Below, one piece after another: positions 35,619-52,905 of a stretch of 64,000 nt of DNA. Position 1 is the first letter of the stretch; each line of letters starts with the position of its first letter. The translations under genes and the position numbers were made by a program. Below the pieces are notes generated by a model, which saw only the letters and a list, made by a program, of their open reading frames with translations, was not told the DNA's origin and did no database searches. Source of the stretch: Psychromarinibacter sediminicola (GTDB taxonomy: Bacteria; Pseudomonadota; Alphaproteobacteria; Rhodobacterales; Rhodobacteraceae); contig NZ_JARGYC010000008.1 of the NCBI RefSeq assembly GCF_029168335.1, forward strand, positions 1-64,000. The letters are read 5' to 3'.

Positions 35619-36185
35619 ATGGACGATCCGGCCCGCCCCGTCGCCACGGCCCCGAAACTCCGCCTGTCCAGCCTGCCCCGCCGGGCGGACCAGCCGTTCC
35701 GGCTGGAACCCGATGCCGACACCCGTGCGGCGCTCGCGCAGGAACTGGGCCTGTCGTCCCTGCGCAAGCTGCGGCTGGAGGGGCGGCTGAGCCCGGAGGA
35801 CCGCGACGACTGGCGGCTGGAGGCGATGCTGGGCGCGACGGTCGTGCAGCCCTGCGTGGCCACGCTCGCCCCGGTGACCACCCGGATCGACCTGCCGGTC
35901 GAACGGCTCTACACCGCCGACCCGCCGCCGCTGCCCGCGGGCGACGAGGTGGAGGTGCCCGAGGACGACCATGTCGAGGAACTGCCGGCGGTCCTGGACC
36001 TCGCGGCGCTGATGGCGGAGGAACTGGCGCTGGCGCTGCCGGCCTACCCGCGCGCCGAGGGCGCGGCGCCGGTGGAGGAGATATCCACCCCGCCCGGCGC
36101 CGCCCCGATCGAGGAGGAGGAGGAGACCAAGCCCTTCGCCGGGCTCGCCGCGCTGCGCGACAAGATCGCGAAGGACGACGAGTGA
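35619..36185 (+). CDS. DUF177 (YceD) family protein
   Basis: The 188-residue protein matches DUF177/YceD, with the cysteine-containing VVQPCVATLAPVTTRID segment and an acidic C-terminal half ending KPFAGLAALRDKI. The family is linked to 23S rRNA accumulation and to rpmF. It normally precedes rpmF and plsX. Here no rpmF follows; a DUF4833 gene starts 108 bp downstream, marking the boundary of the lipid cluster. Confidence 0.9.
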   Translation: MDDPARPVATAPKLRLSSLPRRADQPFRLEPDADTRAALAQELGLSSLRKLRLEGRLSPEDRDDWRLEAMLGATVVQPCVATLAPVTTRIDLPVERLYTADPPPLPAGDEVEVPEDDHVEELPAVLDLAALMAEELALALPAYPRAEGAAPVEEISTPPGAAPIEEEEETKPFAGLAALRDKIAKDDE

Positions 36186-36293
36186 TCCCGCGGGGCGCGC
36201 AGCCCCGGAGAACGGCGCCCGCGCCCTGCAATTCCCCGCCGATCCGATAAAAAGCCACCTCGCAAATACCGCAGCGCGGCATATATTCCGCGC

Positions 36294-36899
36294 ATGAACC
36301 GCAGACAGCTCCTCGCCTCCTCTGGCGCCGCCGCCCTCGCCCTGCCCTTCGGCTCCGCCGCCGACGCCGCGCAGCTCACCAGCGTCCGGGTCGAGCGCAA
36401 CGCCCGCCTGCCGCTCGTCCGCCCGGACTGGCCGGTGCCAGACGACCCGAACCAGAAATTCTTCATCCAGCGGTCGACCAACGCCAACACGCTGGTCTTC
36501 GCGGTGAACTACAACGGCGACGGCAGCGTGTCGCAGTCCGATCCGTCGCACATCTACTGGCGGCGCTACGCGAGCAACGGCGCGCGCAAGCCGCTGAAGC
36601 CGATCGAGCGGCTGATCGCCGGCGCCATCCAGGTCCGCAAACGCCCCGAGCCCGATGCCTGGGACATCATCGTGCGCCCGATGCAGCGGCTCAACATGGT
36701 GGTGATCCAGACCGGCCCGCACGAGACCCAGCTGATCGGGCATATCGGCGGCGTGCGGGCGCGGCCGATCTACTGCTATGCCGATGTGGACGAAAGCGGG
36801 CTGATCCCGCGGGTCACGGCGCTGTCGATGCACGGGCTGCTGCCCGGCGGCGGCGCCATCTCCGAGTATTACAGCGTCGCAGGCGGGCAGATCCGCTAA
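36294..36899 (+). CDS. Tat-exported DUF4833 protein
   Basis: The 201-residue protein starts with a twin-arginine-like signal (MNRRQLLASSGAAALAL) and a DUF4833 domain with FFIQRSTNANTLVFAVNY and PSHIYWRRY. Family function is unknown. It lies 70 bp before the inositol-3-phosphate synthase gene, so a periplasmic role in inositol-lipid handling is a reasonable guess. The domain is compact and beta-rich with one lone cysteine (PIYCYAD). Confidence 0.75.
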   Translation: MNRRQLLASSGAAALALPFGSAADAAQLTSVRVERNARLPLVRPDWPVPDDPNQKFFIQRSTNANTLVFAVNYNGDGSVSQSDPSHIYWRRYASNGARKPLKPIERLIAGAIQVRKRPEPDAWDIIVRPMQRLNMVVIQTGPHETQLIGHIGGVRARPIYCYADVDESGLIPRVTALSMHGLLPGGGAISEYYSVAGGQIR

Positions 36900-36969
36900 T
36901 AACCGCTGGCGCTTCGGTCCTTCATCTGCGAAAAGCCGCATCCAGAAAAACGACAAGATCGAGGGATAC

Positions 36970-38094
36970 ATGAGCACCCCCACCGGCGGCCGCATCCGTA
37001 CGGCCATCGTAGGCGTCGGCAACTGCGCCTCCTCGCTCGTTCAGGCCATCTCGTACTGTCGCGCCAAGGGGCCCGAGGCCATTGGCGTCAGCTTTCCCGT
37101 TCTCGGCGGCTACCGGCCCGAGGATATCGAGATCGTCGCCGCCTTCGACGTCGACCGCCGCAAGGTGAACCGCCCGGTGGGCGAGGCCGTGCTGGCCGAT
37201 CCGAACTGCACCGAGGTGTTCTGGGACAGCCTCGACGACCAGCCCGCCCCGGTCCGCCGCGGCCCCGACCTGGACGGCGTCTCGGCCTATATGCGCAACC
37301 AGCCGCCCGAGGTCAGCTTCGTCCCCTCCGATGACACGCCGCTCACGCAGGACGAGATCGTCGCGGTGCTGAAGGAGGCGCAGGCGGAGGTGCTGATCGT
37401 GTTCCTGCCCGTCGGCTCGGTCCAGGCGGTGGAATGCTACGCCCAATGCGCGCTGGATGCCGGCTGCGCGGTGGTCAACGGCATTCCGATCTTCCTGGCC
37501 TCCAACCCGACCTGGGCGAAGAAGTTCGAGGCGGCCGGCCTGCCGATCCTGGGCGACGACTTCAAGGCGCAGTTCGGCGCGACCATAGTACACCGCGCGC
37601 TGGCGCATCTGGCCGACCTGCGGGGGGTCAAGATCGACCGGACCTACCAGCTGAATGTCGGCGGCAATACCGACTTCATGAACATGATGGACATGGACCG
37701 GCTGGCGCTGAAGCGCGAGTCGAAGACGGAAGCCGTGCAATCGGCGATGGATGCACGGCTCGCCGACGGCGACATCCGGATCGGGCCGTCGGACTACGTG
37801 CCGTGGCTCGACGACCGCAAGGTGGCCTATGTCCGGCTGGAGGGTCGGCTGCTGGGCGGCGCGAAGACCTCGATGGAGGTGCGGCTGGAGGTCGAGGACA
37901 GCCCGAACGCCGCCGCCATGGCGATCAGCGCCATCCGCTGCGCCCGCATCGCGCGCGAGCGCGGGATCAAGGGCGCCGTCGCCGATGCCAGCGCCTTCCT
38001 GTTCAAGCATCCGCCGGTGCAGCTGGACGACAGCGAGGCGCATGACCTGCTGCTCGCCTTCACCGGCGACGCGCCGGAGGACGCCGGCGCGTGA
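36970..38094 (+). CDS. Inositol-3-phosphate synthase (MIPS), actinobacterial type
   Basis: The 374-residue enzyme converts glucose 6-phosphate to inositol 3-phosphate with bound NAD. The N-terminal IVGVGNCASSLVQAI (13-27) binds NAD. GDDFKAQFGATIVHR and NVGGNTDFMNMMD are the conserved active-site and tetramerisation segments. The short length and motifs match the mycobacterial/archaeal type, not the long eukaryotic one. It overlaps the SDR gene by four bases (GTGA). It provides inositol phosphate for the lipid headgroup made by the genes downstream. Confidence 0.93.
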   Translation: MSTPTGGRIRTAIVGVGNCASSLVQAISYCRAKGPEAIGVSFPVLGGYRPEDIEIVAAFDVDRRKVNRPVGEAVLADPNCTEVFWDSLDDQPAPVRRGPDLDGVSAYMRNQPPEVSFVPSDDTPLTQDEIVAVLKEAQAEVLIVFLPVGSVQAVECYAQCALDAGCAVVNGIPIFLASNPTWAKKFEAAGLPILGDDFKAQFGATIVHRALAHLADLRGVKIDRTYQLNVGGNTDFMNMMDMDRLALKRESKTEAVQSAMDARLADGDIRIGPSDYVPWLDDRKVAYVRLEGRLLGGAKTSMEVRLEVEDSPNAAAMAISAIRCARIARERGIKGAVADASAFLFKHPPVQLDDSEAHDLLLAFTGDAPEDAGA

Positions 38095-38876
38095 GCGGCG
38101 CGGCCACCCGGCCGGCCTTCATCACCGGCGGCTCCAGCGGCATCGGGCTGGAGCTCGCCCGCCAGCTTGCGGCGCGCGGCCACCCCGTAGCGGTCTTCGC
38201 GCGCGATCCCGGGCGGTTGCGCCGCGCGGTTGAAATCCTGCCCGAACTGAGCACCTACGAATGCGACGTGGGCGACGCACCGGCGGTCGAGGCCGCCGTC
38301 GGCCGCGCCATCGCCGAGCTGGGACCGCCCGGCTGGGCCATCGCCAATGCCGGCGTCGCGGAGCCGGGCCTGTTCCTGGAACAGCCCGCGGTGACGCACG
38401 AGACCCACATGCGCGTCAACTACATGGGCGCGCTGCACTTCGCCCGCGCCTGCGCGCCCGCAATGCCCGACGGCGCCAGGCTGGTCTTCGTGTCCTCCGG
38501 GGCGGCGTTCTTCGGCATCTACGGCTACGGCGCCTATGCGCCGTCGAAATTCGCCCTGCGCGGGCTGGCCGAGGTTCTGCGCGTGGAACTGGCGCCGCGC
38601 GGCATCTCGGTGACGCTGGCCTATCCGCCGGACACCGAAACGCCGATGCTGGCGGCGGAGGCGCGCACGAAATCCGAGGCGACGCGAAAAATCACCGCCG
38701 GCGGCGGGGTCTGGCAGCCGGCCGATGTCGCGCGCCTGATCCTGAAACGCGCCGAGCGCGGCCGGTTCGCGGTCGCGCCGGGGGCGCAGATGACGGCGCT
38801 TTTGTGGCTGCACTCGCTCCTCGCCCCCGCGCTCCGGCGCTGGCAGGCGGGTATCGTCCGGAGGTCCGGGCGATGA
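38091..38876 (+). CDS. SDR resembling 3-ketodihydrosphingosine reductase
   Basis: The 261-residue short-chain dehydrogenase has TGGSSGIG (12-19), NAG and the catalytic Ser136, Tyr149 and Lys153. The segment AYPPDTETPMLAAEARTKSE followed by TRKIT matches the eukaryotic KDSR/Tsc10 hallmark (AYPPDTDTP) very closely, which ordinary SDRs lack. It would reduce 3-ketosphinganine to sphinganine. The start is GTG at 38091. No serine palmitoyltransferase gene is in this window, so the long-chain base must be started elsewhere, or a related aminolipid is made. The gene is coupled to MIPS and to the CdsA-like gene. Confidence 0.8.
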   Translation: MSGAATRPAFITGGSSGIGLELARQLAARGHPVAVFARDPGRLRRAVEILPELSTYECDVGDAPAVEAAVGRAIAELGPPGWAIANAGVAEPGLFLEQPAVTHETHMRVNYMGALHFARACAPAMPDGARLVFVSSGAAFFGIYGYGAYAPSKFALRGLAEVLRVELAPRGISVTLAYPPDTETPMLAAEARTKSEATRKITAGGGVWQPADVARLILKRAERGRFAVAPGAQMTALLWLHSLLAPALRRWQAGIVRRSGR

Positions 38877-39784
38877 TGCTGGCGCCGGCGGGGGCGGCGG
38901 GCGTGGTTCAGATGCTGGCGCTGGCCTGCCTGGTGCTGCTGGCGATCGGCTATCTGGTGGTGCTGGCGCTGATGTTCGTGCCCGCCACGCGTCGCGCCGC
39001 ACGCGAGACCTTTCCGATCCTGCTGACCGAGACGCTGATCGTCGGCGTCGTGGCCGGGGCCTTTTTCCTCGGCGGCTGGGCCATCCTGGCGCTGGCGGTG
39101 CTGCTGACCCTGCGCACCGCCTACGAGGCCGCGCGCGTCACCCTGCCCCGCATCGGCATCCCCGGTCTGCTTCCGGCGCTGCTGGTGGCGGCGGGGACGC
39201 TGGTGCTGGCGCTTCTCGCCGCACCGCTGCACCCGGTGCTGCTGGCCTCCGGCGCGGGCGGCGCGACGATTCTCGCGATCTGGATCGCCCGCCACTTCGC
39301 CCGCGGCCGGCCCGTGCGCATCTTTGCCGAGCTCGCCGCCTTCCCCGTCCTGCCGCTCGTCGTCTTCACCGCCGCCGCCCTGCACGGCGGCGCGGCGACG
39401 CTGCTGATCGCCTTCCTGCTGGTCGAGACCTTCGACAGCTACGCGCTGCTGGGCGGCAAGCTGTTCGGCCGGCGCAAGGCGTTCCCGGTGCTCAGCCCGA
39501 AGAAGACGGTCGAGGGGCTCGTCACCGGCGCCGTGATGCTGATGCTGACCGCCGCCGCCGCCGGCGCACTGCTCTTCGGCTTCCCCGTCGGCGCCGCCGC
39601 GCTCGTCGCGCTGCTCACCGGGCTCTTGACCGTGGCCGGCGATCTCGCCGCCTCGCGGCTGAAGCGCGCCGCCGGGGTCAAGGACTTCCCGCGGATCCTG
39701 CCGCACCAGGGCGGCCTGCTGGACATCACCGACGCCTGGATCGCCGCCGGCGCCGGGCTGACCGTGCTCGCCGCGCTGTCGTGA
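38873..39784 (+). CDS. CdsA-like phosphatidate cytidylyltransferase
   Basis: The 303-residue membrane protein has about eight hydrophobic segments. It ends with the CDP-diglyceride synthetase signature, readable as SRLKRAAGVKDF plus LPHQGGLLDITD. CdsA makes CDP-diacylglycerol, the donor for PIP synthase. The start overlaps the SDR stop (ATGATG). A housekeeping cdsA normally sits next to uppS and dxr, so this is probably a dedicated paralogue for the inositol-lipid pathway, and its acceptor lipid may differ. Confidence 0.85.
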   Translation: MMLAPAGAAGVVQMLALACLVLLAIGYLVVLALMFVPATRRAARETFPILLTETLIVGVVAGAFFLGGWAILALAVLLTLRTAYEAARVTLPRIGIPGLLPALLVAAGTLVLALLAAPLHPVLLASGAGGATILAIWIARHFARGRPVRIFAELAAFPVLPLVVFTAAALHGGAATLLIAFLLVETFDSYALLGGKLFGRRKAFPVLSPKKTVEGLVTGAVMLMLTAAAAGALLFGFPVGAAALVALLTGLLTVAGDLAASRLKRAAGVKDFPRILPHQGGLLDITDAWIAAGAGLTVLAALS

Positions 39785-39867
39785 CGGCAGGCGCCGCGCG
39801 AGATGTTTGAACCCGCCCCGGACTCGCCGCATCATCGTCCCGACGACGCAGCGAAGGCCCCCCGCCG

Positions 39868-41091
39868 ATGATCCGCCACCGCAGCCCGATGATCCGGCTT
39901 CTCAGCCAGCGCGCCCTGCGGCTGATCCTGGGGCTGCTGGTGCTGATCGAGGCGATCTTCATCGCCGACACCTTCACCTCGACCCTGGAAGGCGTGATCC
40001 GGCTGGGCGGCACTGCCTTCGACCTGCTTCGCGTGCTGATCCTCGGCTCGCCCGAGGTCATCGCTTTCGCGCTACCCATCGTGCTGTTTCTCGGCCTCTA
40101 CTTCGCCGTCACCCAGGCGCGCGACGCCAACGAACTGGTGATCTGCGCCGCCGCGTCCGAGCCGTGGCAGCGCATCCCGCGGCTGGCGCTGACCCTGGGC
40201 ACGCTGGGCTTCGCGCTGTCGCTGCTGATCTCGGGGCTGATCACGCCGCTGTCGAACTACGCCCTGCGGCTGACCTATGGCGAGTTGCAGGCGCGGCTTC
40301 TGGTCGAGCAGCTGACCAGCCCGGCCAGGGAGGCCGTCCTGCGCGAATTCGACGGCCGCGCCGTCATCGCCACCCCGCCCTCGGACCCGGAGACCGCCCC
40401 GGAGGCCGCGCGCGGCGGATTGTTCGTGTTCCGCCCCGGCGGCGGCGGACGCTGGACCGCCTCGATCGCCGACAACTGGTCGGTCGAGGGGCCCGACGAC
40501 AACGGGGTCTTCCGCATCCGGCTGGAGGATTTCCGCGAGTATCGCGGGCGCGCGGGCGCGGCGCCCACCGCCGAGACCGGCCCGCGCATCAGCTCTCAAC
40601 TGCCCTCCGCGCTGCAGTTCGCGCAGATCAATGTCGAGAATTTCGAGATCGACTTCACCGTCGAGGACATCCTCGCCGCGCGCGACCAGGTCCGCGCCTT
40701 CGGCGAGCGCTATCTGTTCGACGAGGACGGGCCGCTGGCCGGCCCCGAGCGGGTGCTGAGCGACGGCCGGACCGTCGCCGCACCGACCCGCGCCTTCGGC
40801 GAGATGCTGGCCCGCGCCCTTCTGTGCCTGGTCGCGGCCTCGGTGGCGCTGGCGGCGGCGGTCTGGTCGGGCACCCGGCAGGGACGGTTCGCCGCGCTGC
40901 CCGCCGGGCTTATCGCCGTGCTGGCCTGCGACGTCGCGGCGCGCGCGATCCTCGGCGAGGCCGCGGCGCTGGGCTATCCGCGGTTCTGGCCGGCCGCGGC
41001 GGCCATCGCGGCGCTGGGGATGGCCCCGGCGCTCGGCTATGTCTGGACGCGCGGCGAGCTCATCGTGGCGCCGCCGCGCAGCACCCGATGA
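39868..41091 (+). CDS. LptF-like (YjgP/YjgQ) permease
   Basis: The 407-residue protein has the LptF/LptG layout: two N-terminal helices plus a third, a periplasmic beta-jellyroll domain (about residues 140-300), then three C-terminal helices. It overlaps the LptG-like gene (ATGA). LptF/G normally extract LPS for transport to the outer membrane. Here no lptA, lptB or lptC is nearby, and the pair follows lipid-synthesis genes, so it may move a different lipid. Sequence divergence from housekeeping LptF is inferred, not measured. Confidence 0.8.
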   Translation: MIRHRSPMIRLLSQRALRLILGLLVLIEAIFIADTFTSTLEGVIRLGGTAFDLLRVLILGSPEVIAFALPIVLFLGLYFAVTQARDANELVICAAASEPWQRIPRLALTLGTLGFALSLLISGLITPLSNYALRLTYGELQARLLVEQLTSPAREAVLREFDGRAVIATPPSDPETAPEAARGGLFVFRPGGGGRWTASIADNWSVEGPDDNGVFRIRLEDFREYRGRAGAAPTAETGPRISSQLPSALQFAQINVENFEIDFTVEDILAARDQVRAFGERYLFDEDGPLAGPERVLSDGRTVAAPTRAFGEMLARALLCLVAASVALAAAVWSGTRQGRFAALPAGLIAVLACDVAARAILGEAAALGYPRFWPAAAAIAALGMAPALGYVWTRGELIVAPPRSTR

Positions 41092-42194
41092 TCGACCGGC
41101 TGCGCATCCTGGTCCTCGGCATCGCCACGCGGCGGGCGCTGTCGGACTATCTGCTGGGCACCGGCCTGATCCTGTTCATCCTGGCGAGCATCGCCTACAC
41201 CATCGACCTGGCCCGGTGGTTCCCGCAGATCCGCACCGCCGCCGCCGAGCGCGACGTGTCGCTTCTGTCGCTGCTGCTGCCCTATCTCGGCCAGCGCGGC
41301 GTGGACATCGTGACGCGGATGCTGCCGGTCGCCGCCTTTTTCGGTCCGTTCATCGCCGAGATCGCCCGCCGCCTGCGGCTGGAGACCGTGATCCTCGCCA
41401 CCGCCGGCGTCTCGCCGCTCTACACCCGCGCCGCGCTGATGTGGCTGGCGCTGCTGCTGGGCCTGCTGAACTGGGGCCTGGAAGCCAGCTGGCGCCCCGC
41501 CGCCGTCTGGGCGCAGGTCGACAGCGGCTTTGGCGGTTACGCCGCGCGATTCCGCCGCGACTGGGTCGAGGGCAAGTGGTTCGTCCGCGGCGACATCGCG
41601 ATCCGCGGCGACGTGCTGCGCACCGATACACCCGAAATGCGCGACGTGCTGATCTTCGAGGGCGTCGGCGGCGGCGCGCTGCGCAGCATCCGGGGCGCCG
41701 AGCGGATCGTCTCCGTCGACGGCCGCTATCGCTGGCGCATGGAGGGCGTGACCGAGTGGCGCAGCGAGCCGGAGGCAGGCGGCGACAGGCCCCGCGAGGT
41801 CGAGCTGCCGCTCGTCCCCGAGCAGCTGACCTATTACGGCGTTCTGCCCTACATGCTGCCGACGCCGGCGCTGAACGCCGTGTCCGATCTGCGAGCGCGC
41901 GCGCCCGAGGCCCCGGCCTATGCCACCGCCTTGTGGCGGCGCTGGACCGCCGTCTTCCTGCCCGGCGCCATCGCCTATCTGGCCATCGCGCTGGCCAATC
42001 TGGGCTTCGAGGGGCGCCGCGCGCTGATCCCCCGGCTGATCGCCCTCGGGACGCTGGGCTACGCCTCGGTGGTGACGGTCAAGGTGTTCCGGTCGCTGGG
42101 GCAGTTCGACATCCTGCCGCCGGCCCTGTCGGTGCCGGGATCGCTGCTCTTGCTGGCGGTCGCCGCCGCCTTCGTCGCGCGCCGGGCCCCCTGA
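41088..42194 (+). CDS. LptG-like (YjgP/YjgQ) permease
   Basis: The 368-residue protein shares the LptG layout: helices at about 20-45, 60-80 and 95-125, a periplasmic domain (about 130-270) and three C-terminal helices. It is translationally coupled to the LptF-like gene. It ends 24 bp before the convergent nucleotidyltransferase gene. Together they should form the membrane half of an ABC-type lipid extractor that needs an LptB-like ATPase encoded elsewhere. Confidence 0.8.
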   Translation: MIDRLRILVLGIATRRALSDYLLGTGLILFILASIAYTIDLARWFPQIRTAAAERDVSLLSLLLPYLGQRGVDIVTRMLPVAAFFGPFIAEIARRLRLETVILATAGVSPLYTRAALMWLALLLGLLNWGLEASWRPAAVWAQVDSGFGGYAARFRRDWVEGKWFVRGDIAIRGDVLRTDTPEMRDVLIFEGVGGGALRSIRGAERIVSVDGRYRWRMEGVTEWRSEPEAGGDRPREVELPLVPEQLTYYGVLPYMLPTPALNAVSDLRARAPEAPAYATALWRRWTAVFLPGAIAYLAIALANLGFEGRRALIPRLIALGTLGYASVVTVKVFRSLGQFDILPPALSVPGSLLLLAVAAAFVARRAP

Positions 42195-42218
42195 CGCCCG
42201 CAGGCCGCAGGCGCCGGC

Positions 42219-42992
42219 TCAGCCCTGCCCGGCGGTGGCGGCGGCCGGCATCCGGGGATGCGCCGCCCGCGCCGCGGCGATCCGCGGAAAGACGACACGC
42301 TCGGCGCGGGCCAGCATCGCCTCGTCGTCCACCTCGGCCCAGGGCAGGTCGTCGAGCCGGATGCAGGGCACCGGCACGCGCCGGCCCAGCTCCACCAGCC
42401 CCGGCTCGTAATGCTCCGCCGGCACGTCGGCCAGTACGTCCTCGACGGCGCGGCGCATCTCGGGCACCGCCGCGGCCTCCAGCTTGGTGATGCCGACCAG
42501 CTCGCCCAGATGCGGCTCGGGCCGGGCATCGGCGATCTTGGAGATCTCCTGCAGGTGCCCCTCGTCCCCGGCCCAGACATAGACCTCGTCGCCGGCGCCG
42601 GTGGGTCCAGACGTCACCAGCCGGTTGCCCGGCGCCAGCGCCGCCTCCAGCGCCTCCGGCGCATAGACCAGATCGGATTCGAGAATCACGACATCGCCGT
42701 CCAGCCCGTCCAGCGCCGTGGCCAGGGTCTGCAGGCTACCGGTGCTGTCGTAGAGCGGGTTATGGATCAGCTCCACGTCCCGCTCGGCGCCGAAGGCCTC
42801 GCGGTACTGCTCCGCCAGGTGGCCGGTGACAATCCGCACCCGGCCGATGCCGAAGGCGCGCAGGGTGGCCAGCGACTGCGCCGCCATCGTCTCGCCCCCC
42901 ATCTCGATCAGCCCCTTGGGATAGAGCTTGCCGCGCGGGCCCATGCGGACGCCCAGACCGGCCGCGAGAATGATCGCCGTTGTGTCGTTCAT
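42219..42992 (-). CDS. Sugar/alcohol-phosphate nucleotidyltransferase (LicC/PntC-like)
   Basis: The 257-residue protein has the nucleotide-binding start IILAAGLGVRMGPRGKLYPK (about 8-27), the IVTGHLAEQY segment and the metal-binding ILESDLVY. These fit the cytidylyltransferases LicC and PntC and the inositol-1-phosphate cytidylyltransferases. It probably makes a CDP-activated headgroup, perhaps CDP-inositol from the MIPS product, or a CDP-alcohol for the transferase at 48046. The substrate is not fixed. It is on the minus strand between plus-strand cluster genes. Confidence 0.75.
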   Translation of the reverse strand: MNDTTAIILAAGLGVRMGPRGKLYPKGLIEMGGETMAAQSLATLRAFGIGRVRIVTGHLAEQYREAFGAERDVELIHNPLYDSTGSLQTLATALDGLDGDVVILESDLVYAPEALEAALAPGNRLVTSGPTGAGDEVYVWAGDEGHLQEISKIADARPEPHLGELVGITKLEAAAVPEMRRAVEDVLADVPAEHYEPGLVELGRRVPVPCIRLDDLPWAEVDDEAMLARAERVVFPRIAAARAAHPRMPAAATAGQG

Positions 42993-43155
42993 GCGGCCTC
43001 CAGCCTGCGGTCACCTGCCCCGTGTGTCGCGGGGGACGTTATGCTAGGGGGGGCGGAGCATCAAGGCGAGGAACCGGCGTGACCAGGCGGAATCGGCAGC
43101 TTTCGGGGCCCGGCCCGGCGGGGTCTTGCCGGCCGGCCGCAGTGCGGGCGCCGCG

Positions 43156-44274
43156 GTGAAGATCGTCCAGCTCTGCCCCTACGACATGGACCGCCCCGGC
43201 GGCGTCCAGCGCCATGTGCGCGACCTGGCCGCCTGGTGCCGCGCGCAGGGGCACGAGACCCGCATTCTGTGCCCGCCCGCCCCCGGCGGCGCCCCCGGCA
43301 CCGACGAAGCGGTCACCCGGCTCGGCCGGTCGCGGATGCTGCGGGTCCACGGCACCGGCTTCGAGATCGCCCGCGCCGGCCGGTCCGAGCTGCGCCGCAC
43401 GGCCGCGGCGCTGCAGGACTGGGGCGCCGACGTGGTGCATATGCACACGCCCTGGACGCCGATGCTGGTGGCGCAGCTCTGGCGCGCGCTGGGGCTGCCG
43501 ACGCTGGCGACGGTGCATGCCACCCTGCCCGCGCCCGACGCGAAGGGACCGGTCGACCGCTACATCCGCTGGTCGGCGCGCCGCATCCTGCCCCGCTGCG
43601 ACGCCGTCGCGGTGCCGTCCGAAGCGCCGCTTGAGATGCTGCGGCGGGTGATCCCCAACCTATCGGCCGAGCTGCGCGCCCCCGCCATCGACCTCTCGCC
43701 GTGGCGCATGGCCCGCGCCGCCGGGGCGGCGCGCCGTCCCGGCCTATCGCTCGTCTTCCTCGGGCGGCTGGAGCCGCGCAAGGGGCTCGACGTCCTGCTC
43801 GCCGCCTGGCCGCGAATCCGCGCGGCGATGCCCGGCGCGCATCTGACCATCGCGGGCGACGGCCCGCTGCGGGCCGAGGCCGAGGCGGCGCGGGGCGACG
43901 GCGTCCTGATCGTCAGCCGCCCCGACGACGCGGCCGCGCAGACGCTGCTCGCCGCGGCCGACCTGCTGATCGCGCCCGCCCCCTACGGCGAGAGCTTCGG
44001 CCTGATCCTGGCCGAGGCGATGGCGGCCGGCGCCCTGCCCGTCGCGGCGGCGAATCCCGGCTATGCCTCCGTCCTGACGGGCGACGGCGTCGATCTGCTG
44101 GTCCCGCCCGGCGACGCAGGCGCGCTGGCCGACAAGGTGATCGCGCTGGCCGAAGACCCCGAGCGGCGCGCGCGCCTCCGGGACTGGGCGACGGCCCGCG
44201 CCGCCACCTTCGACGTCGCGGCCCAGGGGCCCGCCTACCTGGAGATCTACCGCCGGATCGCAGGCGCCGCCTAG
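43156..44274 (+). CDS. GT4 glycosyltransferase resembling PimA
   Basis: The 372-residue GT-B enzyme begins KIVQLCPYDMDRPGGVQRHV, nearly the pattern of phosphatidylinositol mannosyltransferase PimA. It has HMHTPWTPM, the GRLEPRKGLDVLL donor-domain start and the ESFGLILAE (E-x7-E) motif. It likely adds a hexose, possibly mannose, to an inositol lipid. The GTG at 43156 is chosen because the alignment with PimA begins there; TTG at 43126 is an alternative. Neither has a clear ribosome-binding site. Its stop overlaps the convergent desaturase stop by four bases. Confidence 0.8.
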   Translation: MKIVQLCPYDMDRPGGVQRHVRDLAAWCRAQGHETRILCPPAPGGAPGTDEAVTRLGRSRMLRVHGTGFEIARAGRSELRRTAAALQDWGADVVHMHTPWTPMLVAQLWRALGLPTLATVHATLPAPDAKGPVDRYIRWSARRILPRCDAVAVPSEAPLEMLRRVIPNLSAELRAPAIDLSPWRMARAAGAARRPGLSLVFLGRLEPRKGLDVLLAAWPRIRAAMPGAHLTIAGDGPLRAEAEAARGDGVLIVSRPDDAAAQTLLAAADLLIAPAPYGESFGLILAEAMAAGALPVAAANPGYASVLTGDGVDLLVPPGDAGALADKVIALAEDPERRARLRDWATARAATFDVAAQGPAYLEIYRRIAGAA

Positions 44275-45365
44275 CCGGACCGCCCGGCGCAGCGCGCGCT
44301 GTTGTCCTGCCCGTGCAGCGGCGAGTTCCGGCTGGCGGTGAAATCGCCCTTCACATGCTCCAGCCAGTAACCGGCATAGGTCTTGTCGGCCTTCGCCGTG
44401 AACACCTCCGGCGCCGTGCGGGTCAAGAGCGGCAGCCGCGTCCAGGCCACGTTCGGGAAGGTGTGATGCTCGTTGTGATAGCCGGTGTTGAACAGCAGCC
44501 AGTTGATCGGCCCGTAGGTCGACCGCGAGGGCGCGTCGTCGTCGGTCCCCTCGTGCTCGCTGAGCGACTGGCCGAGGTTCCAGATGCCGAGCTTGCCCAG
44601 AAACAGCGACAGCGCCCAGATGTGATACAACAGCGCCCAGGGCCCGAGAAGCAGCAACAGCGTCAGGTTCGACAGGATCGACACGCCGATGAACAGCCGC
44701 ATCTGCCATTTCGGCGGCCTGCTCGCAGGCACGTGCCGCTCCGGGTCGCTTTGCGGCCGGCCGGTGATCCAGGCGTTGAGCTTGGGGAAGATCTCGTCGC
44801 CGATGATCGGGCCCAGCGGCAGCGCGTGGATGAACAGGGTCAGGCCGGTCAGCACGTGCTGCAGCCGCGGGTTGTCCGAGCGCAGCTGCATCCGGCTCTG
44901 GAAGGCGCAGATATCCTCGTGCTCGTAGTCCCGCTCGTAATCGCCGATATAGGGGTGGTGGCTGGTGATATGCTCATGCTGGTAGATGAGCTGTTTGCCG
45001 TAACTCCCCAGAATCCATTCCAGACCCAGATCGAAAGCCAGCTTCGCGCGGTCCCGCCGGAAGATCAGCCGATGCGCCGTCTCGTGGACCAGCCCGCCTG
45101 CGGAATGGATCAGCAGTTGCCCCGGCACGAAGGCGGCAAGGAAGATGACACACAGCGCGGCATCCGACACGGCCCAGGCGATCCCCCAATGCAGCGCCAG
45201 CAGCACCGGCAGCGCCAGCACGGTGCGCGGGTCGGCGCCCGACACGCCGCCCAGCTCGGGATGCGCGGCGATGGCGGCCTTGCGCATCTCGTTGTGCCGC
45301 CGCGCCTGCGGCGAGATGCCGGCCTTGCGGCCGTCCTTGGGAACCTGTGCGGGGGACTGATCCAT
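44271..45365 (-). CDS. Membrane fatty-acyl desaturase, dihydroceramide-desaturase-like
   Basis: The 364-residue membrane protein has three histidine boxes: HETAH (94-98), HITSHH (132-137) and HNEHH (297-301). The segment TYGPINWLLFNTGYHNEHHT followed by FPN strongly recalls the C-terminal block of DEGS sphingolipid delta-4 desaturases/C4-hydroxylases (YYGPLN...NVGYHNEHHDFP). With the KDSR-like SDR it supports a sphingoid lipid. A general fatty-acid desaturase is the alternative. It lies downstream of the Stealth gene on the same strand. Confidence 0.8.
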   Translation of the reverse strand: MDQSPAQVPKDGRKAGISPQARRHNEMRKAAIAAHPELGGVSGADPRTVLALPVLLALHWGIAWAVSDAALCVIFLAAFVPGQLLIHSAGGLVHETAHRLIFRRDRAKLAFDLGLEWILGSYGKQLIYQHEHITSHHPYIGDYERDYEHEDICAFQSRMQLRSDNPRLQHVLTGLTLFIHALPLGPIIGDEIFPKLNAWITGRPQSDPERHVPASRPPKWQMRLFIGVSILSNLTLLLLLGPWALLYHIWALSLFLGKLGIWNLGQSLSEHEGTDDDAPSRSTYGPINWLLFNTGYHNEHHTFPNVAWTRLPLLTRTAPEVFTAKADKTYAGYWLEHVKGDFTASRNSPLHGQDNSARCAGRSG

Positions 45366-45431
45366 CGTCGCGTTGCCTTCCGATGCCGGCCCGGCCGCGC
45401 CGCGCGCGGGGACCGGTCCCTGTCTAGGAAA

Positions 45432-46397
45432 TCACGCCGGCGCGCGCAATGGCGCCGGCTTCTCCCAGGGCGCGGGGTCGGGAAACCATAGCGCCAGCTG
45501 CCGCCGCACCATCGCCACCACGCGCGGGTTCGGGCGCTGGCCGAAACTGTCGTTCAGCGTCACCGTCAGCGGTTTGCGACGGGTCAGCTTCCACAGCTCC
45601 CACCGGGTGATCGGTGCGAAATTCTCAATCGAAACATAGCCTTCCACGGCATTGCTCAACCTGTCGGGCGCCACCACGGCATGCCCCGTCTCCACCGCGT
45701 AATGCTGCAACAGGAACTCCGGCGGCACGTTGTCGGGGGCGCGAAAGCGCGACCGGCGGGTCGTGGCGATCGCCTGCGCGAAATCGGCGCACATCGCCTT
45801 GGCCACCGGCACCTCCCAAAGCTGCGGCCCGTGGATCACGTGGCGCCGCCCGGTCCCGCCGCCGAACCGCGCCGCCAGCGCCCGGTCGGCGGTGGCCAGC
45901 GCCAGGTTCCACGGGCTCGCCTTGGCCGGATCGTGATCCTGCCGCACCCGGCGCTTCGACAGGTGCACCTGCATCCGCCCGTCCGCCGCGACCATCGCGT
46001 CGCGCCAGTCGGGCGACATCACCAGCATGTCGTCCTCGAGATAGGCGAACCGCTCCGTCACATCAGGAATGCGGTGCAGATGGCTGACAATGCAGAAGGA
46101 ATTATAGGTCGGCAGGTTGGCCGGCGCGATGATCCGGTCGTGATGGACGAGGTTGATCTTCGGGTGATCGACGTCCAGCCAGGGCGGCACCTGCGGCCGG
46201 CAGGTCACCAGGTGGATCCTCCGCAGCCAGGGGCAGTTCCGCGCCACCGACCGCATCGAGTAGCGGATCAGGTCCAGATTGTCGCGCGTCCGGTTCGGGT
46301 TCAGGTCGCGCGGATCGTCGGCATAGCGGTTCAGCTCTTCCAGGTAGCCCGGAAAGCTGTCGTCGACCCAGGTATAGACGATGTCCATCTGATCCAT
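45432..46397 (-). CDS. Stealth-family sugar-phosphate transferase
   Basis: The 321-residue cytoplasmic protein has the Stealth conserved regions in order: CR1 DIVYTWVDD near residue 5, CR2 with SVARNCPWLRRIHLVT through YLEDDM (about 55-135), CR3 around VIHGPQLW, and a CR4-like end. These enzymes transfer sugar-1-phosphate and include GlcNAc-phosphotransferase and capsule polymerases. The start at 46397 follows AAAGGGAC. It may decorate the lipid or make a phosphoglycan. It is divergent from the FGGY kinase gene. Confidence 0.85.
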   Translation of the reverse strand: MDQMDIVYTWVDDSFPGYLEELNRYADDPRDLNPNRTRDNLDLIRYSMRSVARNCPWLRRIHLVTCRPQVPPWLDVDHPKINLVHHDRIIAPANLPTYNSFCIVSHLHRIPDVTERFAYLEDDMLVMSPDWRDAMVAADGRMQVHLSKRRVRQDHDPAKASPWNLALATADRALAARFGGGTGRRHVIHGPQLWEVPVAKAMCADFAQAIATTRRSRFRAPDNVPPEFLLQHYAVETGHAVVAPDRLSNAVEGYVSIENFAPITRWELWKLTRRKPLTVTLNDSFGQRPNPRVVAMVRRQLALWFPDPAPWEKPAPLRAPA

Positions 46398-46504
46398 GCC
46401 GTCCCTTTCGGCAAGCGGCGCGGCGATTGCAAGCCCGGGTGTTGCCAAAGCCGTGCCCGCGTGGCACCTCCCGTCTCCATCCGACCCAGCAGGACCCTGC
46501 CCGC

Positions 46505-48049
46505 GTGACCACGCCAGACCTGATCCTTGCCGCCGATTTCGGCACGTCCGGCGTCAAGATCGGCGCGGTGGGGCCGGACCTTGCGCTGGTCGCGACGGTC
46601 ACCGAGACCTACCCGCTGCACCTGCCCGCCCCGGCACGGGCCGAGCAGATGCCCGAGGACTGGTGGGCCGCGCTGGCCCGCGGCATCGCGCGGCTCGGGG
46701 CGGAGGTTCCCCACCTCGCCGCCCGCACCGGCGCGCTGGTCTTCACCGCGCAGATGTGCGGCGTGATCTGCGCCGATGCCGAAGGCCACGCGCTGCGCCC
46801 GGCGCTCGTCTGGCTCGACAAGCGCTCCGCCCCGGTGATCCGGCGGAAGACGGGCGGGTTTCCCCGGATCGCGGGCTATGGCGCGGGCTTTCTCGCCCGC
46901 TCGATCCGGCTGGCCAACGGGGCGCCGTCGCATAACGGCATGGACCCGCCGGGCAAGATGCTGTGGATCATGGAGGAGGAACCGGAGGTCTTCGCCCGCA
47001 CCGCGCATTTCCTCGACGTGAAGGACTGGCTGATCCAGCGCGCCACCGGCGAAGCCACCACCACGGCCGACAGCGCCAACCTGACCTGGCTGATGGACAC
47101 GCGCCGGGGCCGCGAGGGCTGGTCGCCGGCGCTGGCGGCGCGCTACGGCCTCCCGCTCGACCGGCTGCCCGCCATCGTCGACGGCGCGGCCGAGGTCGGG
47201 CCGCTGACCCCGGCGGCGGCAAGCCAGCTGGAGCTGCGCCCCGGCACGCCGGTGCTGGGCGGCGGCGGCGATGTCAGCGCCACGGCCATCGGCTCGGGCG
47301 CGGTGGCCGACGGCGCGCTGCATGTGTGTCTGTCGACCTCGTCCTGGGTGGCGGGGTTCTTCGACCGCCGGGTGCTGAACGTCTTCGCCGCCTATGCCAC
47401 GATCACCGCCTCGATCGACCGCCGCCCGCTGCTGATCGCCACGCAGGAGGTCGCCGGCTCGGCGCTGTCCTGGCTCGCGGCCACCATGGGCGCGGGCGAC
47501 GACCTTGCCGCGTTCTACGCCGATGCGGGCCCGGCGCAAAAGACCGACCCGCTGTTCCTGCCCTGGCTGGCGGGCGAGCGTGTGCCGGTGGACGAGGAGC
47601 GCCTGCGCGGCGCCTTCTACGGGCTGAGCCTGCGCCACGACGCGGGCGCGCTGAAACGCGCCGCGATCGAGGGCGTCGCGCTCAACACCCGCTGGGTCTT
47701 CGAGAAGGTGCTGGCCGAGAAGGGCGCGACGGTCGACGGCCCGGTGCCCGTGGTCGGCGGCGCGGCGGCGAATCCGCATCTGGTGCAGGCGCTGGCCGAC
47801 GCGCTGAACCGTCCCGTGCGGGTGGGCGACGCGGCCTGTTCCGGGGTGCGGGGCGCCGCGGCGATGGCGGCGCCGGCGCTGGGCTGGGCGCCGGATGTCT
47901 GGACGGCGGCGCGATCCTTCGTGCAAGGATCGGCCCCGGTGGTGGACCCGGACCCGGCCCGCCGCGGCCTGGTCGAGGACCGCTACGGCGAGCTCAAGGC
48001 GGTGCGCAAGGCGCTGGTGAAACTCTACCGGCGAAGGACGGCGACATGA
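46505..48049 (+). CDS. FGGY-family carbohydrate kinase
   Basis: The 514-residue protein belongs to the FGGY family (xylulokinase, glycerol kinase and relatives). It has the N-terminal phosphate-1 motif LAADFGTSGVKIG, a GAPSHNGMDPPGK segment and the C-terminal VVGGAAANPHLVQALADAL adenosine-binding block. The start is GTG at 46505. Its sugar or polyol substrate is unknown. It overlaps the CDP-alcohol phosphatidyltransferase gene (ATGA), so it may phosphorylate a headgroup precursor. Confidence 0.85.
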   Translation: MTTPDLILAADFGTSGVKIGAVGPDLALVATVTETYPLHLPAPARAEQMPEDWWAALARGIARLGAEVPHLAARTGALVFTAQMCGVICADAEGHALRPALVWLDKRSAPVIRRKTGGFPRIAGYGAGFLARSIRLANGAPSHNGMDPPGKMLWIMEEEPEVFARTAHFLDVKDWLIQRATGEATTTADSANLTWLMDTRRGREGWSPALAARYGLPLDRLPAIVDGAAEVGPLTPAAASQLELRPGTPVLGGGGDVSATAIGSGAVADGALHVCLSTSSWVAGFFDRRVLNVFAAYATITASIDRRPLLIATQEVAGSALSWLAATMGAGDDLAAFYADAGPAQKTDPLFLPWLAGERVPVDEERLRGAFYGLSLRHDAGALKRAAIEGVALNTRWVFEKVLAEKGATVDGPVPVVGGAAANPHLVQALADALNRPVRVGDAACSGVRGAAAMAAPALGWAPDVWTAARSFVQGSAPVVDPDPARRGLVEDRYGELKAVRKALVKLYRRRTAT

Positions 48050-48663
48050 TCGACGGGCTGATGAAGGACGTGATCGACCCCGTGTGGGAGGCGATGGCCC
48101 GCCCGCTGGTCCGCGCCCGGCTGACCCCGAACCAGGTGACGGCGCTGGGGCTGGCGCTGATCGTCCTCGTCTCGACGCTCTATCTCTGGCACGGCTCGCA
48201 CTGGGTCTACGGGCTGACGCTGGCGGTCGCCTTCGTCTTCGACGCGCTCGACGGTGCGGTGGCGCGGCAGCGGGGGATGAGCAGCAGGCTCGGCGGCTAT
48301 TTCGACGCGATGGTCGACCGCTATCAGGAGCTGATCGTGCTGGCCGCCATCGCCTGGGTCACGGGCCTCTGGGCGCTGGCGCTGCTGGCCTTCTCGGGCG
48401 CGATGCTGACGAGCTATGCCAAGGCCCGCGCCGCCATCGAGACGCCGGTCTCCAACACCGACTGGCCCGACCTGTTCGAGCGGCTGGAGCGGATCGTCTA
48501 CCTCTGCGTCCTGCTGGTGCTGGCCGGGCTTGTGCCCTGGGCCTGGCTCCTGCCCGCGGGGCTCGCCGTCTACGCCGCGCTGTGCCACCTGACGGCACTG
48601 CAACGCGCCCGGCGCGCGGCGCGGATCCTGCGCGCGGCGGACCGGGACGGCCCGCGCCATTGA
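48046..48663 (+). CDS. CDP-alcohol phosphatidyltransferase, PIP-synthase-like
   Basis: The 205-residue membrane protein carries the complete family motif D66-x2-D69-G-x2-A-R-x8-G-x3-D87-x3-D91. The following SYAKARAAIE and FERLERIVYL segments resemble archaeal and mycobacterial phosphatidylinositol-phosphate synthases. With MIPS and a CdsA paralogue it would form PIP, or an inositol phosphoceramide-like lipid if the donor is a ceramide derivative. Start overlaps the kinase stop. Other headgroups remain possible. Confidence 0.82.
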   Translation: MIDGLMKDVIDPVWEAMARPLVRARLTPNQVTALGLALIVLVSTLYLWHGSHWVYGLTLAVAFVFDALDGAVARQRGMSSRLGGYFDAMVDRYQELIVLAAIAWVTGLWALALLAFSGAMLTSYAKARAAIETPVSNTDWPDLFERLERIVYLCVLLVLAGLVPWAWLLPAGLAVYAALCHLTALQRARRAARILRAADRDGPRH

Positions 48664-48713
48664 CGCCTTGGCCCGGATATGATTGCTGAGCGCCATTCCA
48701 GACAAGGGACCAG

Positions 48714-50396
48714 ATGAGGACTTCGGCTTTCGGGAAACTGCGCGACCTCGTGGGCTTCCTGGTCCGCGATGGCGAGATGCTGCGCAGTCCGATCCTGCTC
48801 TACGCCGTCGGCGCCTCGGGCGCGCGCACCGGCATGATCTATGCGGTCAACGAGACCGCCGAGCGCGGCGGCGCCACCTGGGGCCTGTTCGGCCTTCTGG
48901 CGGCGGCGGTGGTCGGGTCGCTGGTGCTGTCGCACCAGGCGCGGGTGCATGGCATCGTGATGGTGGAGAACCTCACGCTGAAGCTGCGCCGCCGGATATC
49001 CGACCACGTGCTGAGCGCCGATGTCGGCTTCTTCCAGTCGCGCGATCCGGGCGAGGTCTATTCCGCGCTGACCGGCCATGTCATGGCCCTCTCCGGCGCG
49101 TCGACCCGCCTGGTCGAGACGGTGCAGGCGGTGCTGCTGCTGCTGTTCTGCCTGGTCTACATGGCGCTGGAAAGCTGGCCGGCCGTCCCGGCCACCCTGG
49201 CGGCGCTGGCGCTGGGGCTGGCGGCCTTCGCGCTGGCCGAGCTTCCGGCGCGCAAGCTGCTGCGCCTGGCCAACGATAAGCGCGCCGAGTTCTACACCGC
49301 AATGAACGACATGCTGCGCGGCTACAAGGAGCTGCGCCTGCGCCAGGCGCGGCGGATCGACCTGGCCAAGCGCGTGGAACAGGTGGTCGAGGAGGCGCGC
49401 CTCCGCACGATCGCCGCGGAACGGATATTCTCGTTCAGCACGATGGCCGCGACCGCGGCGCTGGCCTTCCTGCTGGTCAGCATCGTGGTGCTGCTGCCGC
49501 CGCTCACCGGCGCGGGCAGCGTCGTGATCCTGCAGGTGCTGACCGTCGTGCTGTTCACCTTCGGACCGATCGAGCGCGTCGTCGGATCGCTGCCGGCCTA
49601 TGCGCGGGCCATCGTCGCATACGACCAGATGAACGAGGTGCTGGCGGACATGGCCCGCAACTCGGAATCCGAGGCGGTCCGGCGCGCGCCGGACAGCCGG
49701 CCCTCGTTCCGGCGGCTGGAGCTGCGCGGCGTGACCGCCATCCTGCGCCGGCCGACGCCGGCCGCGGGCAGCACGGTCGAGGACAGTTTCACCCTGGGGC
49801 CCATCGACCTGGTGCTGGAACCCGGCCAGTCGGTGTTCATCACCGGCGGAAACGGCATGGGAAAGTCCACGCTGCTGCAGATCCTCACCGGCCTGCGCCA
49901 CCCCGACGCGGGCGAGATCCTGGTCGACGGCGTTCCGGTCACCCGGGACACGGTGGGCGAGTATCGCGGCCTGTTCAGCGCCGTGTTCTCCGAGTTCCAC
50001 CTGTTCCGCCAGCTCTACGGCCTGAGCGCGGACGAGCGGCAGCGCCTGCAGACCCATATCGAGGAGCTGGGCCTGGCGCATGGCGTCTCCATCGCCGACG
50101 ACGCGTTTTCCTCGCTGGCCCTGTCGACCGGTCAGATGCGGCGGCTGGCGCTGTCCATCGCGCTGGCCGAGGAACGGCCGATCATCGTGCTGGACGAGTT
50201 CGCCGCCGACCAGGACCCGGTGCGCCGCGCCTTCTTCTACGACGTGCTGGTGCCGCGCCTGTCGCGTGCCGGGCAGCTGTTGATCGCGGTCACCCACGAC
50301 GAGCACTGCTTCGGGAAATCCGACCGGCTGATCCGGATGGAGGACGGCAGGATCGTCTCGGACAAGCTGAACCGCCCCGCCGAGGCCAGCGCCTGA
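48714..50396 (+). CDS. Fused ABC exporter, SyrD/PvdE-like
   Basis: The 560-residue protein has six N-terminal membrane helices and a C-terminal ATPase. The ATPase has Walker A GGNGMGKST, signature LSTGQMRRLAL (a SyrD-type variant of LSGGQ), Walker B IIVLDEFAADQDP and switch VTHDE. This layout and signature fit the cyclic-peptide/siderophore exporter group. It ends the plus-strand part of the lipid cluster, 50 bp after the phosphatidyltransferase gene, and may flip the lipid or a precursor. Substrate unknown. Confidence 0.85.
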   Translation: MRTSAFGKLRDLVGFLVRDGEMLRSPILLYAVGASGARTGMIYAVNETAERGGATWGLFGLLAAAVVGSLVLSHQARVHGIVMVENLTLKLRRRISDHVLSADVGFFQSRDPGEVYSALTGHVMALSGASTRLVETVQAVLLLLFCLVYMALESWPAVPATLAALALGLAAFALAELPARKLLRLANDKRAEFYTAMNDMLRGYKELRLRQARRIDLAKRVEQVVEEARLRTIAAERIFSFSTMAATAALAFLLVSIVVLLPPLTGAGSVVILQVLTVVLFTFGPIERVVGSLPAYARAIVAYDQMNEVLADMARNSESEAVRRAPDSRPSFRRLELRGVTAILRRPTPAAGSTVEDSFTLGPIDLVLEPGQSVFITGGNGMGKSTLLQILTGLRHPDAGEILVDGVPVTRDTVGEYRGLFSAVFSEFHLFRQLYGLSADERQRLQTHIEELGLAHGVSIADDAFSSLALSTGQMRRLALSIALAEERPIIVLDEFAADQDPVRRAFFYDVLVPRLSRAGQLLIAVTHDEHCFGKSDRLIRMEDGRIVSDKLNRPAEASA

Positions 50397-52758: not shown

Positions 52759-52905
52759 CCGCGCCCTTGCCGCCTTATCCATCGCCGCGCGCCGTCCCGA
52801 CGGTCCGCGAGTCGTCCGCCCGTTCCGACGGGGCGGAGCATGCGCGCCCGCGCGCCGGATTCACAGGGTCTTTTTGCGGAATTTTTGCGGCCGGCGCGTT
52901 CCGGC

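Follow-up and report, generated by a model that had tools for sequence, protein, structure and literature searches.

The 64,000-nucleotide stretch of Psychromarinibacter sediminicola DNA considered here (the window; contig NZ_JARGYC010000008.1, positions 1 to 64,000) contains a second copy of the genes for LptF and LptG, the permease pair of lipopolysaccharide (LPS) export, located among genes that appear to serve the synthesis of an unusual inositol-containing lipid. The idea of a dedicated LptF2/LptG2 pair for a lipid other than LPS is already in print for Caulobacter (PMC11324152). What is new here is a separate, deeply diverged LptFG clade that is tied to a different lipid cluster. Standing beside these genes, the second copy of the pump probably brings their lipid product to the cell surface, and we place a probability of roughly 0.6 on the more specific reading that LptF2G2 is the membrane half of a dedicated ATP-binding cassette (ABC) extractor, which would act through the ATPase LptB to move the inositol-phosphate lipid of its own cluster toward the outer membrane. 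The two genes are:

39868..41091, + strand: LptF2, divergent LptF permease, 407 amino acids (PF03739, fold, tree, coupling-helix E89)
41088..42194, + strand: LptG2, divergent LptG permease, 368 amino acids (PF03739, tree, coupling-helix position 99)

Membership of this pair in the LptF/LptG family is confirmed. The two open reading frames (ORFs) overlap as ATGA, and both match PF03739 above its cut-off of 27.9 bits (37.2 bits, E 2e-9 for LptF2; 65.3 bits, E 7e-18 for LptG2). Four genes on the same strand, for a DUF4833 protein, Ino1, a short-chain dehydrogenase/reductase (SDR) and a CTP_transf_1/CdsA-like enzyme, run into the pair, bearing out the original observation of a coupled LptF/LptG pair behind a lipid-synthesis operon. 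Searches of LptG2 and LptF2 against solved structures with phmmer returned nothing significant, whereas comparison of the predicted LptF2 fold did give matches. The model (mean predicted local distance difference test score, pLDDT, 88) covers LptF2 only and was built from 26 of 33 sequences, namely the window and 25 of the 32 related loci described below; in it, membrane helices are predicted to flank a periplasmic jelly-roll, as in the PF03739 family architecture. Among the 50 structure matches listed, ranks 1-19 are LptF/LptG chains with Z 15.6-21.6. Seventeen of these carry LptB2FG or LptB2FGC in their titles, and 5x5y and 5l75, which have generic titles, we take to be LptB2FG as well; the 20th match is an LptA jelly-roll at a weak Z of 5.4. 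The equivalog models for LPS export, TIGR04407 and TIGR04408, were applied to the window pair, which falls far below both cut-offs (53 bits against 230, and 64 bits against 240).

PF03739 matches four proteins of the same genome: LptF2, LptG2 and, on contig C110, two strongly scoring proteins (206 and 226 bits). The C110 pair lies between pepA (Peptidase_M17, on the opposite strand) and a run of lptD, surA, pdxA and ksgA, each of these neighbours passing its Pfam cut-off; this is where the earlier note had suggested looking for a housekeeping pair. The window pair is therefore not the only lptFG of the genome, the case that would have refuted the earlier interpretation. LptF2 is 16.8% and LptG2 15.0% identical to these housekeeping counterparts (15-17% overall), and the two pairs fall in separate clades. 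On contig C155, lptA (PF03968, 81 bits) lies directly before lptB, and an lptC-like frame, seen by eye and given no name by Pfam, precedes both. The LptC model PF06835 has no match in the genome, and it also misses this frame; the model is therefore insensitive here and its negative result void. The presence of lpxC indicates that LPS is probably made. The genome has the window pair in addition to its housekeeping Lpt genes, a feature of the Caulobacter-type LptF2/LptG2.

The divergence of the pair was assessed in a tree of 49 rows. Housekeeping sequences supplied 7 F and 7 G, inositol clusters 14 F and 13 G, and sphingolipid-type loci, which have an alpha-oxoamine synthase close by, 4 F and 4 G. 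The inositol rows are the window with 13 of the 32 loci for F and with 12 of the 32 for G, the LptG of locus L079 being too short to include. The comparison rows are 20 of 29 matches from 7 genomes (3 below the cut-off and 6 from inositol clusters were dropped) and the two from the window's own genome. The F and G sides split at 100/100, and on each side the inositol and the housekeeping rows form separate starred clades, four in all, with stems of about 2.2 changes per column below the inositol clades. The window pair is 15-18% identical to the 7 housekeeping LptF and 7 housekeeping LptG. LptG2 joins three of the four sphingolipid G rows weakly (83/71), and the F side has no resolved placement.

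The other genes around the pair are:

36294..36899, + strand: DUF4833 protein (PF16117, 53.6 bits), candidate periplasmic partner, with an export-signal-like N-terminus judged by eye
36970..38094, + strand: Ino1, inositol-3-phosphate synthase of mycobacterial type (PF01658, 112 bits; best PDB chain 1gr0, 343 bits, which we take to be from Mycobacterium tuberculosis)
38091..38876, + strand: SDR reductase (adh_short, 132 bits)
38873..39784, + strand: CdsA-like cytidylyltransferase (PF01148, 116 bits), which would give a CDP-lipid
42219..42992, - strand: PntC-like (CTP:2-aminoethylphosphonate cytidylyltransferase-like) nucleotidyltransferase (NTP_transf_3), adjoining lptG2
43126..44274, + strand: PimA-like family 4 glycosyltransferase (GT4), start codon uncertain (PDB PimA 131 bits, next, unrelated match 51.5)
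44271..45365, - strand: fatty acid desaturase family protein, accessory (PF00487, 80 bits)
45432..46448, - strand: Stealth-family protein, accessory (Stealth CR2 101.6 bits, CR3 33.4 bits)
46502..48049, + strand: FGGY-family carbohydrate kinase (PF00370 and PF02782)
48046..48663, + strand: CDP-alcohol phosphotransferase, (archae/phosphatidyl)inositol-phosphate-synthase-like (NF040950, 120.5 bits, cut-off 180)
48714..50396, + strand: ABC exporter of cyclic-peptide type, candidate inner-membrane flippase (TIGR01194, 301.6 bits, cut-off 286.2)

The ABC exporter scores 95.8 bits on the MsbA model, far under the cut-off of that model. For the SDR, the best NCBIfam score is 130 bits (cut-off 276) and the best PDB match is a FabG-type reductase (80 bits); by a sequence motif it may be 3-ketosphinganine-reductase-like. 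The PntC-like protein is closest to PDB chain 6pd1 (122.8 bits, next 30.1), which we take to be PntC, its PDB title reading 'Nucleotidyl transferase/aminotransferase, class V'. Of 14 proteins scanned in the stretch 35619-50396, not one was given the name LptA, LptB or LptC, in line with the earlier remark that these genes are missing beside the pair; no search for lptA was made across the remaining window. Next to the ABC exporter, a gene on the - strand (50479-52860) encodes a large BTAD-domain protein; such a domain is characteristic of SARP-like regulators.

Related loci were found with an alignment of nine LptG2 sequences, which retrieved 32; the LptG2 protein alone as query gave none. All 32 were thus chosen by LptG2 similarity, their flanks were examined up to 10 kb, and some end at contig ends. 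They come from Maritimibacter, Pseudoruegeria, Shimia, Stappia, Salinihabitans, Oceanicola, Pseudopelagicola, Thiosulfatihalobacter, a Mesorhizobium metagenome-assembled genome and unclassified Rhodobacteraceae or Rhodobacterales. Genes for DUF4833, Ino1, the CdsA-like enzyme and LptF2 are present in every one (32/32), followed by the SDR (31/32), GT4 (28/32), the FGGY kinase and the CDP-alcohol transferase (27/32 each) and the ABC exporter (22/32); the PntC-like gene (14/32), Stealth (10/32) and the desaturase (3/32) are less frequent. A floor of 70 bits drops one weak PntC-like match and leaves the locus counts unchanged, and in the ORF calls lptF2 of L077 and lptG2 of L079 are short or split. 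The recurrence of the neighbourhood in 32 of 32 related loci is therefore not due to chance; the counts are not independent, because many loci are from close relatives (Shimia) and several genomes are shared with a sample of 292 genomes of the order. In that sample, LptG2 occurs in 11 genomes (3 of 112 genera). DUF4833 is present in these 11 and in no others, and Ino1 occurs in 13, made up of the 11, where it lies within 5 kb of LptG2, and two more. The co-occurrence of LptG2 and Ino1 has a hypergeometric P of 3e-18, with kinship ignored. The two further Ino1 genes (412 and 417 bits to the window's Ino1) stand in different surroundings: apart from a 67-bit match to the FGGY kinase and a 40-bit match to the SDR, nothing of the cluster was matched near them.

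At the level of the class, a sample of 385 genomes (E <= 1e-10, at most five candidates scored per genome) yielded matches in at least nine genomes. Two of these nine are of the inositol type, and the other seven have E-values of 1.6e-14 to 2.8e-21. An alpha-oxoamine synthase lies within the examined stretch in six of the seven, and at one locus (L090) genes for a DAGK-type kinase and an epimerase-family protein pass their Pfam cut-offs, accompanied by an exporter-like ABC gene (62 bits to that of the window). We take these seven to be candidate Caulobacter-like sphingolipid loci.

The enzymes of the cluster point to its product. The CDP-alcohol transferase is nearest to archaetidylinositol-phosphate and phosphatidylinositol-phosphate synthases, under their cut-offs, and its best PDB match is 6h53 (CDP-diacylglycerol--inositol 3-phosphatidyltransferase, 47 bits). 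Taken with the Ino1 and PimA-like matches, it speaks for a glycosylated inositol-phosphate lipid as the product. The mycobacterial pathway to phosphatidylinositol (PI) and its mannosides, with Ino1, PI-phosphate synthase and PimA, provides the best solved-structure matches of all three enzymes, which presumably are from mycobacterial organisms. Mycobacteria are not known to have Lpt export; unlike there, the cluster here is found in Gram-negative marine Rhodobacteraceae and their relatives. In the sequence of events that we propose, Ino1 would provide inositol phosphate and the CdsA-like enzyme a CDP-activated lipid, which the CDP-alcohol phosphotransferase would join to give an inositol-phosphate lipid, and the PimA-like glycosyltransferase would then attach a sugar. 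The ABC exporter may flip the product over the inner membrane. LptF2G2, with the genome's LptB as ATPase, would remove it from the outer leaflet of that membrane and hand it to a periplasmic bridge (LptA or a common bridge, perhaps together with DUF4833) leading toward the outer membrane.

An alpha-oxoamine synthase gene lies upstream in 30 of the 32 loci, and this linkage is the reason to think that the inositol lipid may rest on a sphingoid-type base. With the SDR, the enzyme suggests such an anchor, and the product is perhaps a glycosylated phosphosphingolipid. In the window's genome, the gene (L134:118-1431) is outside the cluster, near the end of contig C276, and its product is 87% identical to the copy in the Maritimibacter cluster. 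Among solved structures, serine palmitoyltransferase (SPT) is its best match (229 bits), followed by KBL (214 bits); it is distinct from the SPT of Caulobacter type. SPT as a certain identity was rejected, since PDB favours SPT and NCBIfam gives BioF below cut-off. Two genes resembling those for 5-aminolevulinate synthase (ALAS) were also read by eye in this genome (L037 16857-18113, - strand; L018), and they form one clade.

Genes for phosphonopyruvate decarboxylase and a PhnW-like transaminase lie upstream in 6 of the 32 loci (L050, L051, L057, L062, L066, L079). Along with the PntC-like gene, they hint at decoration of the lipid with 2-aminoethylphosphonate in some lineages. For the window's own genome this was left as a lead, since the match to phosphonopyruvate decarboxylase there is of only 27 bits.

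In Escherichia coli, an acidic residue in the coupling helix contacts LptB. The corresponding position is Glu in all 26 LptF2 sequences (E89) and in 24 of 32 LptG2 sequences (position 99; window and 31 loci), and it is Glu in the housekeeping and sphingolipid-type rows (11/11 F, 11/11 G). From 152 ABC matches in the genome (150 of 171 candidates scored), one passes the LptB cut-off. With one LptB over the cut-off and the coupling residue kept, sharing of LptB is plausible, and a common LptB is the simplest reading, as no such ATPase was found among the scanned cluster genes. The earlier interpretation, of a dedicated non-LPS exporter that shares LptB, is partly supported by these data: the housekeeping pair elsewhere in the genome, the separate clades, the linkage to the inositol cluster in 32/32 loci and the plausible LptB sharing speak for it; the cargo, ATPase partner, bridge, destination and lipid anchor are inferred. 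The DUF4833 protein might, as a guess, be a periplasmic partner. Its model (pLDDT 84, from 26 of 33 sequences) is mostly beta.

Several observations weigh against LptF2G2 as a dedicated extractor of a sphingoid-anchored inositol lipid working through LptB. In the tree, LptF2G2 do not fall clearly with the sphingolipid-linked pairs or with the housekeeping ones. The coupling residue of LptG2 is Asp in 8 of 32 sequences, and LptB binding may therefore differ. No LptC2 or LptA2 was recognised among the scanned cluster genes, with a Pfam LptC model that is insensitive here. The DUF4833 model has no recognisable fold (no Foldseek match at E <= 0.001; best Z 4.0), and nothing is claimed for it as an LptC-like or lipid-transfer fold. 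A Caulobacter-type SPT is not present in the genome; in all 11 genomes with LptFG2 the best matches to the SPT query, taken from a genome assigned to the Caulobacter type, are of 188-210 bits, compared with 481-988 bits in 6/6 sphingolipid-type genomes, where the top score is the query itself. The best NCBIfam match of the alpha-oxoamine synthase is BioF, under every cut-off, and this is the sole such enzyme in the genome besides the two ALAS-like genes; it could therefore even be BioF here. A role in biotin synthesis could account for the genome's copy, and its cluster position in 30/32 loci speaks against that.

Different models can be proposed for the function of the pair. Long tree stems, the Asp variants of LptG2, and the presence of DUF4833 in 32/32 loci and in just those 11 of the 292 genomes that have LptG2 would all fit a pair that is powered by another ATPase and follows a periplasmic path of its own, such as a DUF4833 shuttle, in place of LptB and the LPS bridge. 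We consider this unlikely, though worth keeping in view: there is no separate LptB-type ATPase among the scanned cluster genes, the neighbouring ABC gene encodes a complete exporter, membrane domain included, and the coupling Glu is kept in 26/26 LptF2. Fold and family membership, along with the probable synthesis of LPS (lpxC), are also what would be expected of a variant extractor of LPS or lipooligosaccharide (for a modified LPS or another surface glycan), its position in the cluster reflecting co-regulation only. Such a role is improbable given the housekeeping set in the genome, the conservation of the cluster in 32/32 loci and the co-occurrence of the genes over 292 genomes. The least probable of the models has the pair moving lipid in the opposite direction, or serving as a mere inner-membrane flippase or a scaffold for the synthesis enzymes. 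It would explain why the cluster shows no recognisable bridge component of its own; the LptF2 model retains the periplasmic jelly-roll, which also aligns weakly to LptA, and a separate exporter-type ABC gene occupies 22 of 32 loci, both of which argue against it.

The preferred reading of LptF2G2 as a dedicated extractor can be extended, in a form that we regard as doubtful: marine Rhodobacteraceae and relatives would make a glycosylated inositol-phospho-sphingolipid, in some lineages perhaps with 2-aminoethylphosphonate, and export it by a private LptF2G2 working on the LptB and bridge of LPS. Such a lipid would recall the glycosyl-inositol-phosphoceramides of eukaryotes. If this is true, one export machine would serve two lipid cargoes by means of exchangeable permease pairs. 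A second, deeply diverged LptFG clade locked to another lipid cluster would hint at the swapping of permeases on a common LptB as a general solution, for which marine environmental strains are offered as a place to test.

The system has parallels in other bacteria. In Caulobacter, CC_1168, CC_1156 and CC_1155 were named as a second LptC, LptF and LptG in the phosphosphingolipid region (PMC11324152, 2024), and the authors propose, as a hypothesis, that LptC2/F2/G2 carry phosphosphingolipids to the outer membrane. The CPG2 cluster of C. crescentus, as described there, is like the present one in having a second LptF/LptG pair beside lipid-synthesis genes, with a CDP-diacylglycerol-synthase-like gene, a CDP-alcohol transferase and nucleotidyltransferases. 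Its head group is phosphoglycerate; the present cluster instead encodes Ino1, an enzyme resembling PI-phosphate synthase and a glycosyltransferase resembling PimA. The Caulobacter system has a named LptC2 and flippase, and its SPT is of a type not found here. An alpha-oxoamine synthase is tied to the cluster as in the Caulobacter type (in 30/32 loci), although in the window's genome it is unlinked, on C276. In the tree, where pairs of the sphingolipid type stand in for those of Caulobacter, the two kinds are not established as one clade. With the housekeeping LptB2FGC, the window pair shares the LptF fold and the acidic coupling-helix residue, and it differs in its low identity (15-18%), separate clades and scores under the equivalog cut-offs. 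A paper on CpgD from 2025 (PMC12275187) does not contain the terms Lpt, transport or export.

In Borrelia burgdorferi, which is free of LPS, an Lpt system is proposed to carry glycolipids (PMC10353723); the likeness is Lpt machinery with a proposed non-LPS cargo, and the difference is that LPS is missing there, whereas here a second pair stands beside LPS export. The inositol phosphoceramide cluster BT1522-1526 of Bacteroides thetaiotaomicron also combines myo-inositol-phosphate synthase with a PI-synthase-like enzyme; organism and gene set differ, and LptF occurs 0 times in the paper that describes it (PMC8791184). The alphaproteobacterium Novosphingobium acidiphilum is reported to make an inositol phosphosphingolipid (PI-DHC-like) with fragmentation of an inositol-type head group (PMC9246714). 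The paper reports no homology in N. acidiphilum to its authors' inositol lipid clusters, and LptF and transport occur 0 times in it. By title and beginning of the abstract, none of the open-access literature matches listed links LptFG to a cluster for inositol lipids in Rhodobacteraceae. Among the seven genomes with Caulobacter-like loci, one from another family (G456, f39; locus L094) has a single LptFG pair near an SPT-like gene, and one pair may therefore serve a sphingolipid-based outer membrane.

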